A program made the translations under genes and the position numbers. From Candidatus Omnitrophota bacterium (lineage in GTDB: Bacteria; Omnitrophota; JACPQZ01), in the NCBI GenBank assembly GCA_016190205.1, contig JACPQZ010000070.1:1-6992 (forward strand): DNA of 6,992 bases, given 5' to 3'. Numbering within the stretch: the stretch's first letter is position 1; every line of letters begins with the position of its first letter. The notes beneath the pieces are model-generated. The model worked only from the letters and a program-made list of their open reading frames with translations. It was not told the DNA's origin and did not search any database. Positions 2,740-6,992 of this stretch are shown here, one piece after another.

Positions 2740-2757
2740 AGGAAAACGGATGGGGAG
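2739..2757 (+). promoter_or_regulatory. Two alternative ribosome binding sites for the glycosidase-like gene
   Basis: AAGGA at 2739-2743 overlaps the last base of the upstream stop codon and stands 6 nt before ATG 2750. GGGGAG at 2752-2757 stands 4 nt before a second in-frame ATG at 2762. Either start gives the same membrane anchor; the proteins would begin MGRPMKINK or MKINK. The first has the better spacing, the second the more typical n-region. The closeness to the upstream stop suggests translational coupling. Confidence 0.5.
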
Positions 2758-5137
2758 ACCTATGAAGATTAACAAGGCCCAGGCGTTTTACACCGCTTTC
2801 GCCCTCATTGTCTTGTGGGTTGCGATCAGGCTCTTTGTAGTCGGAGGCAGGGATTGGGCCCACGACGCAAGCACGAACGGCGCCGAGACCCCGCAAAAGG
2901 CTGTTGAGCTCATGCCCGCTGCGCAGGGGGCGTCCCCTCTTGCACAAGCGGTTCCCCCCAATAGGGTGTACCCGCCCGCAAGCATTGTGACACAAAACGC
3001 CCTGCCTGCCTTGCCATCTTCCGCTGCAGCACCTGGAATCCTCGTGGACAATTTTGACCGGGGCCTGACGAGCGGTATTTTCTCGGAGCGGCTCAATTCC
3101 CTGGGGAGCTACCAGGGCACGTGGGCCAAGCGGCCTTCCTATTCTATTATTACCAAGAGTTTTGAAGAGCGGCGCGGAAATGCCGGACAGGGCTTAGGTG
3201 TCGAGTGGCGCAGCGCGGGAGGCTGGTGCGGATGGTACACCCTTCTCATGGATCAGGAATTTAAGGGTATAGACATCTCTTCCTATAATGCCGTCACGTT
3301 TTGGGTAAAGGGCGCCCAGGGCGGGGAGAATTTTGACATAGGTCTCGCCGACTTTGCCATGCAGGAGCTTGAGATCGACGCGGTGTACGCAGGCTCGGTC
3401 AAGAACTTTCTCCCCCATGGGATTACGACGGAGTGGCAGAAGGTGAGGGTGCCCTTGGCGCGCGTCTCCTCGGACCTCGATCAAACCAATATGGGCTCGC
3501 TCGTTTTTTGGTTTAGGTACGGAGGATCGGGAAAAGTCTATGTCGAGGACGTCTGGTTTGAAAATGATGAAGAGGTCATGGCCCAAGAGGAATATAATGC
3601 CCCGCAGGCCGAGCGCGTGCCGGGGATGGAAAGGGCGCTGTGGGTTTGGAAGTTTGATCCCATCCGGGTCGGGCGCGTGCGCGAGGAGCTCTTCAAGATG
3701 TGCGAGCGCTCCCACATCAATGCCATCTACCAGTATTTTGGCGATTTTTCGGAGCAGGATGACCCGCAATATGCGGCCCAACTGGAGGAATTCCTGCGCG
3801 AGGCGAGCAAGCGGAAAATCCGGGTGGAGGCCCTGACGGGCAACCCGGTCTGGGCGCTTGAGAAAAACCACGAGGCGTGTCTTAACTGGATACGGGGCTT
3901 CCTGGATTTTAACAGCCGCCGTCCTCAAGAGGCGCGGATAGACGGGGTCTCCCTAGACGTGGAGCCGTATCTGACGGCCGAGTGGAACAGCGAGAGGGAG
4001 AAGATCAAGGAGGAGTATCTGGAGCTATTGGCGAAATGCCGCAAGCTTATCGCTTCCTATAACCAGAAATTCAAGCTGGGGGCCGCGATTCCCCTCCTGT
4101 ACGAGATCGAAGACGGCGGCTTTGAGCGCAAGGTCATCGAACAACTCGATTACATTGCGCTTATGGATTACTACGACACGGCCAAGGCCATCATCGAGCA
4201 CGGGCGTTATCATATTGACCTTGCGAGCGAGCTCGGCAAGAAAGTCTACATGGGTGTGGAGACGCAGGACCTCGTGCGCATGAACCAGGGCAAGCGGCGC
4301 AATACCTTTATCGAAGAAGGCTGGGAGTTCATGGAACAGGAGCTTAAAAGCGTGCACGAAGCCTTCAAGAACTCCCCCTCCTACGCAGGGGTCGCGATCC
4401 ACAGCTGTTATGCGTATAAGCTTTTACAGCGCGGCCGCAACGTCCCCACGAAGGAGCGTCCGCCGGTGGACAAGCTCTACATGGTGCACTCTAAAGAGAG
4501 CACCCGGCCGGTCACGATCGACGGGGATCTTTCGGATTGGGATCTTTCCCAGCACTTTGGCGTACACAAAAAAGAAAACGTGGTCTTTGGGGCCGGCGCC
4601 TGGGTAGACCCCTCGGACTTGTCCTTTGCCGCGCGCAGCCAGTGGGACAAGGATAACCTCTACTTTAGCTTCGCGATGCTGGATAACGCGCATGTGCAGG
4701 AGAAGACGGGGTCCGACATCTGGGAGGGGGACCACATGGAGTTGTGGCTCGACATGGAGCTTGAAGCCGATTATAACGAAGCCATCAATTCTAATGACGA
4801 CCTCCAAATCGGCTTAAGCCCGGGCAATTTCGCGGGCGTCAAGCCCGAGGTCTTTGTATGGGTTCCGGAACTGGATCAAACCCTTGTGCTGAGTGCAGAG
4901 ATTGCTTCCAGGAAAACCGAGGAGGGGTATATCCTGGAGGCACGAATCCCGGCCGCTCTTCTTTATGGCGCGCTTGAAAAGAAGGCGGCAGGTTTTTCGA
5001 AGGGCATGAAGCTTGGCATCATGATGGATGCCTCTGATTCGGATGATCCGAGACTGCCGCAGAAGTGCATGATCTCGAGCTCTACGGATCGTGTGTGGGG
5101 GGATCCCACCACATTCGGCGTATTATCATTGGAGTGA
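2750..5137 (+). CDS. Membrane-anchored GH18-like TIM-barrel protein with flanking carbohydrate-binding domains
   Basis: This 795-residue protein (ATG 2750; ATG 2762 also possible) has a basic start and one hydrophobic segment (about 12-32) without a clear cleavage site, so it is probably an uncleaved anchor with the rest outside the membrane. A low-complexity linker (33-95) follows. Residues 97-271 form a galactose-binding-like (CIA30/CBM-type) domain with WCGWYTLL (159-166), FWVKGAQGGENFDIGLAD (184-201) and TTEWQ (226-230). Residues about 294-560 show eight strand-like segments in TIM-barrel order. Strand 4 reads DGVSLDVEPY (398-407) and strand 6 reads LDYIALMDYYD (466-476). These resemble the GH18 signatures DxxDxDxE and MxYD: D398, D403 and E405 are kept, and the second Asp is Ser401. 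Residues about 576-795 are CBM9-like, with IDGDLSDWD, DNLYFSF, WEGDHMELWLD and GYILEARIP. Polysaccharide hydrolysis or binding at the cell surface is inferred; the substrate is unknown. Confidence 0.88.
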   Translation: MGRPMKINKAQAFYTAFALIVLWVAIRLFVVGGRDWAHDASTNGAETPQKAVELMPAAQGASPLAQAVPPNRVYPPASIVTQNALPALPSSAAAPGILVDNFDRGLTSGIFSERLNSLGSYQGTWAKRPSYSIITKSFEERRGNAGQGLGVEWRSAGGWCGWYTLLMDQEFKGIDISSYNAVTFWVKGAQGGENFDIGLADFAMQELEIDAVYAGSVKNFLPHGITTEWQKVRVPLARVSSDLDQTNMGSLVFWFRYGGSGKVYVEDVWFENDEEVMAQEEYNAPQAERVPGMERALWVWKFDPIRVGRVREELFKMCERSHINAIYQYFGDFSEQDDPQYAAQLEEFLREASKRKIRVEALTGNPVWALEKNHEACLNWIRGFLDFNSRRPQEARIDGVSLDVEPYLTAEWNSEREKIKEEYLELLAKCRKLIASYNQKFKLGAAIPLLYEIEDGGFERKVIEQLDYIALMDYYDTAKAIIEHGRYHIDLASELGKKVYMGVETQDLVRMNQGKRRNTFIEEGWEFMEQELKSVHEAFKNSPSYAGVAIHSCYAYKLLQRGRNVPTKERPPVDKLYMVHSKESTRPVTIDGDLSDWDLSQHFGVHKKENVVFGAGAWVDPSDLSFAARSQWDKDNLYFSFAMLDNAHVQEKTGSDIWEGDHMELWLDMELEADYNEAINSNDDLQIGLSPGNFAGVKPEVFVWVPELDQTLVLSAEIASRKTEEGYILEARIPAALLYGALEKKAAGFSKGMKLGIMMDASDSDDPRLPQKCMISSSTDRVWGDPTTFGVLSLE
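5131..5134 (+). promoter_or_regulatory. Ribosome binding site overlapping the gene 2 stop
   Basis: GGAG directly precedes the TGA of the glycosidase-like gene, reading GGAGTGA, and lies 9 nt before ATG 5144. This is a normal arrangement for a tightly coupled downstream gene. However, the frame it opens now ends inside the inverted-repeat element and not in the next protein. Confidence 0.45.
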
Positions 5138-5143
5138 ACACAT

Positions 5144-5263
5144 ATGATTGGAACGAACCGGTCTCGTACAGCGTACTGCGTACTGCGTGCAACGGTAGCA
5201 CGTCATTGCGAGCCCCGCGAAGCGGGGCGAAGCAATCTCAATGAGCACGCGACTTGCGCCTAG
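5144..5263 (+). other. Short ORF, possible remnant of the original 5' end of gene 3
   Basis: ATG 5144 opens a 39-codon frame beginning MIGTNRSRTAYCVLRATVA and ending at TAG 5261-5263. Only its first 20 or so codons precede the repeat element; the remainder translates the left arm. The start has a good ribosome binding site and is basic, as a signal-peptide n-region would be. It lies in a different frame from the downstream secreted protein. I read it as a candidate old start of gene 3, displaced by the repeat insertion. It could instead be a short leader peptide or have no function. Confidence 0.3.
5165..5188. repeat. Short imperfect 7-bp tandem repeat
   Basis: The units CGTACAG, CGTACTG, CGTACTG and a partial CGTG follow one another just upstream of the inverted-repeat element. 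The array is too short to be more than a minor slippage tract, but it marks the left flank of the element. Confidence 0.5.
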
Positions 5264-5308
5264 TTTGACGTCGCTTAAAACGGGCTCTGGTAGCGCCAAG
5301 TCGCAGTG

Positions 5309-5385
5309 CGAATTGATCCAGAGCGACCGAAGGGAGCGAAGGATCTCATGCCTAGAGATCCCTCACTTCGTTCGGGATCAATTCG
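5309..5385. repeat. Inner inverted repeat forming a long imperfect hairpin
   Basis: CGAATTGATCC (5309-5319) pairs with GGATCAATTCG (5375-5385). GGATCTC (5341-5347) pairs with GAGATCC (5355-5361) around a 7-nt loop. The intervening CGACCGAAGGGAG and its partner CTCACTTCGTTCG pair with a few mismatches and a short bulge. The whole region can thus fold as one stem-loop. It looks like a separate repeat family lodged inside the outer element. Confidence 0.75.
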
Positions 5386-5390
5386 GCCAA

Positions 5391-5413
5391 ATGAGTTGCC
5401 TTCGGCAACTCAT
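5391..5413. repeat. Tight 10-bp palindrome overlapping the likely start of gene 3
   Basis: ATGAGTTGCC, the loop TTC, and GGCAACTCAT form a perfect 10-bp stem. GGCC at 5385-5388 and 5414-5417 can extend it past a two-base bulge. It has no T-run and so is not an obvious terminator. ATG 5412 lies at the foot of the stem and ATG 5391 is its first triplet, so folding of the mRNA could mask initiation. Confidence 0.7.
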
Positions 5414-6593
5414 GGCCTCATTGAGATTGCTTCGTCGGCCTGACGGCCTCCTCGCAATGACAGTCTCGATGCTTGTCTGTGCCATCGGTTTGGGAGCGGC
5501 GCGCGCCGAGACCGTCCCGCTCACCGACATCCCCAAACTCCCCGAAGACACGGCGCTCTTTGAGGCGGAAAAGGCGTTCGGAAGCAGGGGAAAGATAGGC
5601 GGCTTCGCCCTCAAACCAGACCGCTACGGCATTTTCCACACGGAGGAGGGGTGGATACAGGTCATGTACGAAAAAAAGCCGGGGCCGCAGTTCGTGGGCT
5701 GTTACATCATTGTTCTGGGCGATTTGTCTCGCTACGAGACCGTCCAATTTAAGATCAAAGGGGAAAAGGGCGGGGAGACCTTTGAAATCGGCATGAACGA
5801 CACGGTCTCCAATAAGCGCGAGGATGCCGTGTTTGTGGGTTCGATCCACCGGTATCTCGAGAAAGGCATTACCACCGAGTGGCAGGACGTCACGATTCCC
5901 CTGGCCCACTTTTTCGGGCCGGACTTAACCCGCGTCTACAGCCTGGTCTTTCACTTCAATGAGCCGGGTCACGGGACATTTTGGATAGACAATATGCGCT
6001 TTGGGACCGAACCCTATCTTCATTTTGAAGACACCGTCGAGGCGCGGGGACACCTTCTCCTGGACGATTTTGACCATGCCTCGGTCAATCTCCTGGGCCG
6101 CAAGGCAAATGCCTATAAAAAGCTCCCTTCGTACTGCGTCCATTCTCTCACGGACGAAACGTACGTGGGCGGTCGCGGCCGTTCTCTGCGCCTCGATTAC
6201 GCCAAAAAATCCACGGGTTGGTGCGGTTACTACACTCTTCTTAATGAAATCGACGGCGACTACTATGACCTTTCCCGCTACAAATCGGTTTCCTTCTGGG
6301 TTAGGGGGGCCAGGGGGGGTGAGGAATTCGAGATCGGCATGGCTGATAAAAACTGGCTTAACATTGGAGACTCTCTCAAGGCGGGCCCCGTCACAACCTA
6401 CCTCCCTGTCGGCGTCACCACCGAGTGGCAGGAGGTGACCATCCCCCTGGAGGATTTTGGGAAACTCGATTTCACCGTCATGGGTTCCTTCGTGATTAAC
6501 TTCCATAGGAAGCAGGAAGGCACTGTTTTTATCGATGACTTGAGGTTTAACCTCAAAAGCGAGGAGGACCTCCTCAAGGGCTGGGAATTTTAG
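5412..6593 (+). CDS. Secreted protein with two tandem galactose-binding-like (CIA30/CBM-like) domains
   Basis: Started at ATG 5412, the protein has 393 residues. It opens with an Arg-rich n-region (RLLRR), a hydrophobic core (about 13-29) and a likely signal-peptidase I site after ARA (32). No lipobox is present. Domain 1 (about 47-198) and domain 2 (about 215-379) are homologous to each other and to the first domain of the upstream gene. Both carry a KGxxGGExFEIGM-type motif (116-128; 298-310, with Arg for Lys) and TTEWQ[DE]VTIPL (154-164; 336-346). Domain 2 also keeps LLLDDFD and WCGYYTLL, so it is closer to the upstream copy. No enzymatic domain is present, so an exported carbohydrate-binding role is inferred. 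The start is uncertain. The frame is open back to ATG 5241, and ATGs at 5391, 5457 and 5469 are also in frame. None has a good ribosome binding site. I prefer 5412 because it gives a complete signal peptide; 5457 and 5469 leave no positive charge. Confidence 0.85.
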   Translation: MASLRLLRRPDGLLAMTVSMLVCAIGLGAARAETVPLTDIPKLPEDTALFEAEKAFGSRGKIGGFALKPDRYGIFHTEEGWIQVMYEKKPGPQFVGCYIIVLGDLSRYETVQFKIKGEKGGETFEIGMNDTVSNKREDAVFVGSIHRYLEKGITTEWQDVTIPLAHFFGPDLTRVYSLVFHFNEPGHGTFWIDNMRFGTEPYLHFEDTVEARGHLLLDDFDHASVNLLGRKANAYKKLPSYCVHSLTDETYVGGRGRSLRLDYAKKSTGWCGYYTLLNEIDGDYYDLSRYKSVSFWVRGARGGEEFEIGMADKNWLNIGDSLKAGPVTTYLPVGVTTEWQEVTIPLEDFGKLDFTVMGSFVINFHRKQEGTVFIDDLRFNLKSEEDLLKGWEF

Positions 6594-6795: not shown

Positions 6796-6992
6796 GTGGG
6801 GTTTATTTATTTCAGGAGATCTTGTCAACCAGCACGGCCAGAGGTCTCCTTTCTTTTAAAGGATCCCGCCCCATCCTCGGGAAAATGGCAGCGATTCGCC
6901 TTTTCCATTTTTGTCTCATTCATTCTGGGATGGTCAGCGCTTGTAGCGCCCGTGTCCCAAGCCGGGTCTCTCCCTGAAGCCAGCTTTAGAGC
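6796..6992 (+). CDS. Start of an exported protein, truncated by the window edge
   Basis: The frame is open from the codon after TAA 6793-6795 to the end of the window, giving 65 codons and no stop. Residues 30-33 (KWQR) are followed by a long hydrophobic stretch (34-54, nt 6895-6957), then SQA|GS at 54-58, a good signal-peptidase site with a mature start GSLPEASFR. GTG 6796 is the only common start codon in frame before the hydrophobic core; a weak AAAGAG lies 6 nt upstream. It would leave an unusually long n-region of about 33 residues, so the true start may be a rarer codon or there may be a frame error upstream. ATG 6885 lies in another frame. Too little mature protein is visible to name a function. 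Confidence 0.5.
   Translation, partial: MGFIYFRRSCQPARPEVSFLLKDPAPSSGKWQRFAFSIFVSFILGWSALVAPVSQAGSLPEASFR
6815..6857 (+). terminator. Very weak hairpin followed by a T-rich tract
   Basis: GGAGATC (6815-6821) can pair with GGTCTCC (6843-6849) with one wobble across a 21-nt loop, and TTTCTTTT follows. If the protein at the right edge starts at GTG 6796 this lies inside its coding region. If that protein starts later, this could be a leader structure or attenuator. Confidence 0.2.

Follow-up and report, generated by a model that had tools for sequence, protein, structure and literature searches.

A non-autonomous, CGTC-REP-like palindromic element has almost certainly inserted into the n-region of an already existing signal peptide, that of an Omnitrophota secreted protein with CBM30- and CBM11-like domains, and we lean slightly towards the view that the gene would now be expressed, weakly, from a start inside the element over the view that it has been disabled. 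Any protein still produced would now take its start and n-region from the repeat. Related insertions retain an outside start and read in frame through to the core, which indicates that the repeat family can serve as signal-peptide code; this general idea is sound, although the copy studied here may be a failed instance of it.

A palindromic element within an existing signal peptide

The window, that is, the whole stretch of DNA that was analyzed, is one entire metagenome contig of 6992 bp (C62) belonging to a 1.65-Mb genome, which its orthologues place in Omnitrophota. It carries two secreted-protein genes head to tail, one at 2750-5137 and the repeat-bearing CBM30/CBM11 gene, with the following features:

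2750-5137, + strand: upstream operon gene, secreted, with CBM30- and CBM9-like domains (ORF; Pfam CBM9_1 and CBM30 over cut-off)
5131-5134, + strand: GGAG, likely ribosome-binding site of the ancestral start, 9 nt before ATG 5144
5135-5137, + strand: TGA, stop of the upstream gene (ORF)
5144-5260, + strand: ancestral start and n-region remnant (MIGTNRSRTAYCVLRATVA), a 38-codon frame (orthologue starts; in-frame junction after excision)
5165-5188, + strand: CGTACTG heptamer repeat, 3.4 copies, inside the ancestral n-region (TRF)
5201-5462, no strand assigned: inserted REP-dimer element (dispersed copies; Y...R ends; conserved core 5202-5461)
5202-5239, + strand: left REP unit, GTCATTGCGAG-CCCCGCGAAGCGGGG-CGAAGCAATCTC (pattern search)
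5412-5462, + strand: candidate element-encoded start and n-region, MASLRLLRRPDGLLAMT (translation)
5423-5461, - strand: right REP unit, inverted (pattern search; translation)
5463-5507, + strand: original signal-peptide hydrophobic core and cleavage site, VSMLVCAIGLGAARA^ (sequence; aligns with orthologue signal peptides)
5508-6593, + strand: mature secreted protein with CBM30- and CBM11-like domains, frame intact (Pfam; orthologue identity)

Pfam analysis of the mature protein returned CBM30 with E = 2.6e-25 and CBM_11 over the cut-off, and the mature part shares 50-60% identity over most of its length with eight orthologues from Omnitrophota and relatives. In the orthologous loci, a homologue of the 2750-5137 gene lies directly upstream of the window-gene orthologue, and no close second copy of the window gene was found in the 1.65-Mb genome. 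Signal peptides were called by a simple script and by eye. At the far end of the window (6796-6992), a frame resembling the start of another secreted protein (..RFAFSIFVSFILGWSALVAPVSQAG) continues past the contig end.

The core of the element measures 260 bp, beginning with GTCATTGCGAG at 5202 and ending with CTCGCAATGAC at 5461, and the flanking C (5201) and A (5462) complete its Y...R ends. These ends are conserved in the family, as the base at position -1 was C or T in 67 of the 69 paired elements and the base at +1 was A or G in 68. The element is located directly 5' of the hydrophobic core VSMLVCAIGLGAARA, and its right unit, translated on the + strand, reads RLLRRPDGLLAM followed by the first two bases of a T codon. 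The predicted RNA fold of 5195-5470 reached -151 kcal/mol (z = -10.9). Full or partial copies occupy about 17 places in the 1.65-Mb genome, a few of which share the middle part of the window element, and the unit pattern was present in 45 of 97 related genomes, while the reversed-pattern control was found in none. A MITE with target-site duplication was rejected, as a duplication of at least 2 bp directly at the GTC/GAC ends was seen in 0/69 paired elements. Four Y1 tyrosine transposase genes (Y1_Tnp) are present in the window genome (C34, C13, C32, and C66; L066-L069), and none of the four has repeat units close on both sides. That the element might be an assembly error, or be carried by only part of the population, comes to mind because the window is a whole 6992-bp metagenome contig and repeats may mislead assembly. 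This reading is most improbable: the flanks are adjacent in the orthologous loci, which rules out a contig joined from distant parts, and no full-length match to the window element exists elsewhere in the genome.

All eight orthologues have their likely start at most about 50 nt from the end of the upstream gene, leading straight into a short signal peptide. On this ground, the ancestral start of the window gene is ATG 5144, which lies 6 nt after the upstream stop at a position matching the orthologue starts. Its GGAG has a hybridization energy of -5.9 and an opening cost of 7.7 kcal/mol, both within the range of the orthologue starts. Today, the 5144 frame enters the element and ends at TAG 5258-5260. 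Excision of 5201-5462 (262 bp) joins MIGTNRSRTAYCVLRATVA and VSMLVCAIGLGAARA in frame and yields MIGTNRSRTAYCVLRATVAVSMLVCAIGLGAARAETVPLTDIPKLPEDT, an ordinary signal peptide with three arginines. Inserts of 260 or 264 bp were rejected because their excision leaves the frame unrestored, and the length of 262 bp agrees with the conserved Y...R ends of the paired elements. As a general rule, this length drew weak support from mid-gene insertions (8/15 in the predicted class, P = 0.09), and the insert in an LptE gene, described below, does not fit it. Taken together, the eight orthologue starts and the in-frame empty site argue that the repeat interrupted a pre-existing signal peptide and severed its start from its core.

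These results modify the sequence-only reading of this DNA, which had the repeat supplying the start and n-region of the signal peptide. The element does occupy the n-region, and the first residues would be repeat-encoded if translation begins inside it, but it broke into a signal peptide that was already there. The same reading had proposed a comparison with orthologues, and the eight short signal peptides so obtained pointed to ATG 5144, a start that it had not seen.

Other repeats also occur in the leader of this gene. In another orthologue (L059, 7935-7989), tandem copies of the 7-bp unit TGGTCTA code for the signal-peptide core (LWSMVYGLWSIDYGLLTIDSYA), a situation that the heptamer in the ancestral n-region of the window (5165-5188) parallels, and a third orthologue (L058, 2183-2310) has an unusually long leader with GGGGTCAGGCCCC-type repeats. 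The signal peptide of this one gene has thus been entered by several kinds of repeat.

Candidate translation starts

The insertion parted ATG 5144 and its GGAG from the hydrophobic core and, as 262 bp is not divisible by three, altered the frame. The sequence-only reading had observed that the secreted-protein frame continues past the element end at 5461, and indeed frame 0, which spans the element and the protein, has no stop from 5199 until the one ending at 6593. The element contains no stop in the frame of the core and has ATGs in that frame at 5241, 5391, 5412, and 5457, so a protein with a full signal peptide would now arise only from a start within the element, whose outward frame would contribute a charged and then hydrophobic stretch (RLLRRPDGLLAMT). 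The explanation that we favor overall, on balance, is therefore an insertion into an existing signal peptide with the product made from an element-internal start. By eye, ATG 5412 gives the best signal peptide, and our translation agrees with the one given earlier, MASLRLLRRPDGLLAMT followed by VSMLVCAIGLGAARA^E; this ATG is positioned just 3' of a UUCG hairpin. While the element, its family, the ancestral start, the frame relations, and the recurrence are established by the analysis, we infer both the continued expression of the window gene and the position of its translation start.

The main rival, which we hold to be somewhat less likely, is that the insertion disabled the gene: ribosomes would run from 5144 to the stop at 5260, useful amounts of protein would be lost, and the body would be intact only because the insertion is recent. 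In support of this notion, the original start no longer shares the frame of the core and meets a stop, and none of the element-internal ATGs has a convincing Shine-Dalgarno sequence, all of them lying in stable hairpin structure with opening costs of 19.7-28.6 kcal/mol, compared with 7.7 at 5144. The window copy further departs from the other signal-peptide insertions, which are usually in frame with an outside start, and elsewhere in the same genome (C57), an element has deprived a signal-peptide gene of every start. Against this stand the mature protein, which is free of stops and frameshifts over its roughly 360 codons, and the in-frame starts that the element itself provides in the correct frame. 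The open frame through the element is in itself unremarkable, since 175 of the 181 distinct units of the family are open in the outward AMT frame and 168 in a second frame; in the third frame, a TGA arises from the element end itself. The use of ATG 5412 is unproven, its Shine-Dalgarno sequence being unconvincing and its surroundings stably structured.

Two further routes to the protein were considered. Starts 5457 and 5469 had been named as those remaining without the right arm, and correctly described as offering no positive charge besides the amino terminus. ATG 5457 in fact lies inside the element (GCAATGAC, 5454-5461), and only ATG 5469 remains. Initiation there, past the element, would give the minimal signal peptide MLVCAIGLGAARA and reduce the element to leader RNA. 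Its opening cost, 12.8 kcal/mol, is the lowest among the in-frame starts from 5241 onwards, but it has no Shine-Dalgarno sequence, and its 13-residue leader is shorter than that of every orthologue and is devoid of a charged n-region, the positive charges being the amino terminus and the cleavage-site arginine only. We regard this start as very unlikely. Scarcely more credible, and if anything less so, is a start at 5144 followed by a +1 frameshift into the core frame between 5199 and 5260, for example at GAG CCC CGC near 5210-5220. Neither frame contains a stop from 5199 to 5257, and the CCC-C run sits at the foot of a stable hairpin; a conserved shift site is nevertheless absent, the n-region of the product would reach about 100 residues, and no precedent was found.

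Copies of the repeat in other signal peptides

About ten other Omnitrophota secreted-protein genes carry a copy at the equivalent place, including those for LptE, Wzi, BatD, a CcsA-like protein, and an orthologue of the window gene, and in most of them, an outside start leads in frame through the copy. These outside starts mostly overlap the upstream gene and have a Shine-Dalgarno sequence. When the unit length keeps the frame, the outward unit frame reads RLLR...LLAMT, charged and then hydrophobic. An objective script was applied to 285 element ends from the window genome and related genomes, and in 10 of 43 ORFs in the AMT outward frame, the element was immediately followed by a signal-peptide core, two of the ten matches being the doubled element of C27, counted twice. 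This exceeds the 373 of 7554 obtained at random in-ORF positions (P = 4e-5) and the 5 of 56 ORFs in the other open frame (P = 0.046).

Individual cases are given here with slashes separating the outside start, the element, and what follows. The window genome has a TPR protein of the BatE type (C9, VTRHP/CHCEAREAGRSNLKRDCFVPLATLGVLAMT/LCALLMCSVARA), a member of the cytochrome c assembly (CcsA/CcsB) family (C27, MHSKRSA/...RLALAMT/VLAASFAWSS), and a read-through with an outside start in the other frame (C66). Genome G064 contributes a CBM protein (MRT/RLLRALCTLAMT/AVFAIPAFAA), a BatD protein whose element is read through from an outside start, a solute-binding protein (L192), and a further case on C48 (L303). 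In G092, the element interrupts the leaders of Wzi (MVQKTANIT/...RALAMT/VFVLGISVCPAFA) and LptE (MKNFNSN/VIASERSERSNLLGSRSLLRRASLCSALLAMT/ISAFIISGC), and LptE orthologues have plain leaders such as MKKILLLALVLLFTISGC.

The window-gene orthologue of G064 holds a single unit in its signal peptide (MTST/RLLRTLRVLAMT/VAVLIPSSAYA). In the tree, it groups with the element-free L058 and L065 (95/94 support), and its repeat unit differs from those of the window gene, which together point to two separate insertions in the same gene. Independent insertion is the simplest reading of these sequences.

Three other loci deserve mention. In G112 (L250, C17; element ends 1536 and 2270), neighboring secreted-protein genes each have a unit in the signal peptide (MDIKTRLLRALGALAMT/TTFLSPL.. 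and ..LKTGLLRPPKIIGGLAMT/FLFLTTALA). On C57 of the window genome (L105, element end 2053), a signal-peptide ORF of about 390 codons directly follows the element; it has no ATG, GTG, or TTG before the core, the element end gives TGA in that frame, and the ORF is probably broken or uses a rare start. In G064 (L203, C58, reverse strand, element end near 1643), CGCAATGAC holds ATGA, an overlapping stop and start, such that the upstream NUDIX-like gene ends in the element (..LSQ*) and a SuhB-like protein could begin there (MT/ESSAKFLSVAVRAARAAGS), both names being assigned by eye.

Known repeat families and the tolerance of insertions

The element resembles the CGTC-tagged REP superfamily, which was described from five phyla, Omnitrophota not among them, and includes RPE-4 and RPE-6 of Rickettsia conorii (Di Nocera, De Gregorio, Rocco 2013, PMC3733652). 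Shared traits are the C/TGTC end tag, the base before GTC being C in 43 and T in 24 of the 69 paired elements (CGTC at 5201-5204 in the window), a stem that starts with complementary AT (ATTGC/GCAAT can pair in every pattern unit), the occurrence of inverted pairs of units, many copies, some of them intragenic, and the lack of a transposase gene flanked by units. The published families have stems of 8-9 bp, loops of 4-5 nt, and a short CCA-like tail, whereas the Omnitrophota units span about 28-57 nt, with long variable inner stems and a CTC tail. Since stem, loop, and tail differ, we label the element CGTC-REP-like and do not assign it to one of the four published families. In total, 79 paired inverted elements were counted, irrespective of the HH/TT definition of PMC3733652, and single units are also common. 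Most N-terminal REPs in that study were deemed to lie probably outside the true gene; in the Omnitrophota cases, by contrast, the signal-peptide core adjoins the repeat, and there is scarcely space for a start further downstream.

According to the accounts of Ogata et al. 2000 in PMC2229807 and PMC10969869, Rickettsia palindromic elements are in-frame palindromes in unrelated protein genes, where they are read as coding. The Omnitrophota repeat likewise inserts in frame into protein-coding genes, both mid-gene and in signal peptides. By the same accounts, the Rickettsia elements enter proteins of many kinds, whereas here signal-peptide n-regions recur, with mid-gene insertions also occurring. 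The predicted signal peptide of the Yersinia exported protein YPO1552 consists partly of a mobile repeat, RU-2/YPAL (Delihas 2007, PMC2759123, PMC2229807). That case involves a Yersinia-type repeat and chiefly a single locus, while the Omnitrophota cases comprise several conserved secreted proteins in different genera, including the LptE lipoprotein. A literature search with the literal string GTCATTGCGAG returned unrelated papers only, and a combined search for REP, RAYT, and signal peptide found no paper. Intragenic REPs and one repeat-built signal peptide were thus already known; what seems new, within the literature searched, is that such copies recur in conserved secreted proteins of several genera belonging to one phylum, both the outside start and the core being visible.

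Intragenic REPs and Rickettsia palindromic elements raise the question of whether residues encoded by a repeat ever have a function, and N-terminal examples have often been dismissed as annotation errors because a later start is possible. Signal peptides offer a clean test: the n-region, and often the start, is missing once the repeat part is taken away, and a secreted product must therefore carry the repeat. With the same gene apparently struck independently in the window and in G064, and with an in-frame copy in LptE, the question becomes directly testable.

Compared with the whole genome, signal-peptide insertions are in strong excess (P about 1e-14, three genomes). When only intergenic and n-region DNA is considered, 11 of 44 insertions fall in signal peptides against 4.5 expected (P = 0.004), a value for the three case-richest genomes, which were grouped after the cases had been seen; by our own count, the excess over 4.5 would vanish if the other sampled genomes were added. 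Given this post hoc grouping and the loss of the excess with the other genomes, positive recruitment is not established. In the simplest model, an insertion persists wherever it causes little damage, the n-region being one such site, with the fitting frame as an aid; tolerated insertion of this kind explains the recurrent signal-peptide copies. The family's presence in other signal peptides, mostly in frame with an outside start, would accordingly reflect a tolerant region together with a fitting outward frame. A stronger proposal, which we consider doubtful, is that the CGTC-type REPs of Omnitrophota constitute a mobile signal-peptide module whose insertions are kept because they are functional, start and n-region having been repeatedly replaced in independent lineages; the outward frame RLLR...LLAMT would then provide a charged n-region and the first part of the hydrophobic core.

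In-frame copies of the family also occur mid-gene, with 15 clear paired elements that have at least 80 open codons on both sides. Examples recognized by eye are two TrpE-like genes (L201 and L246) and an Lnt-like gene (L272). In the two TrpE-like genes (L201, G064 C44; L246, G092 C85), the repeat is apparently located near the same linker position.
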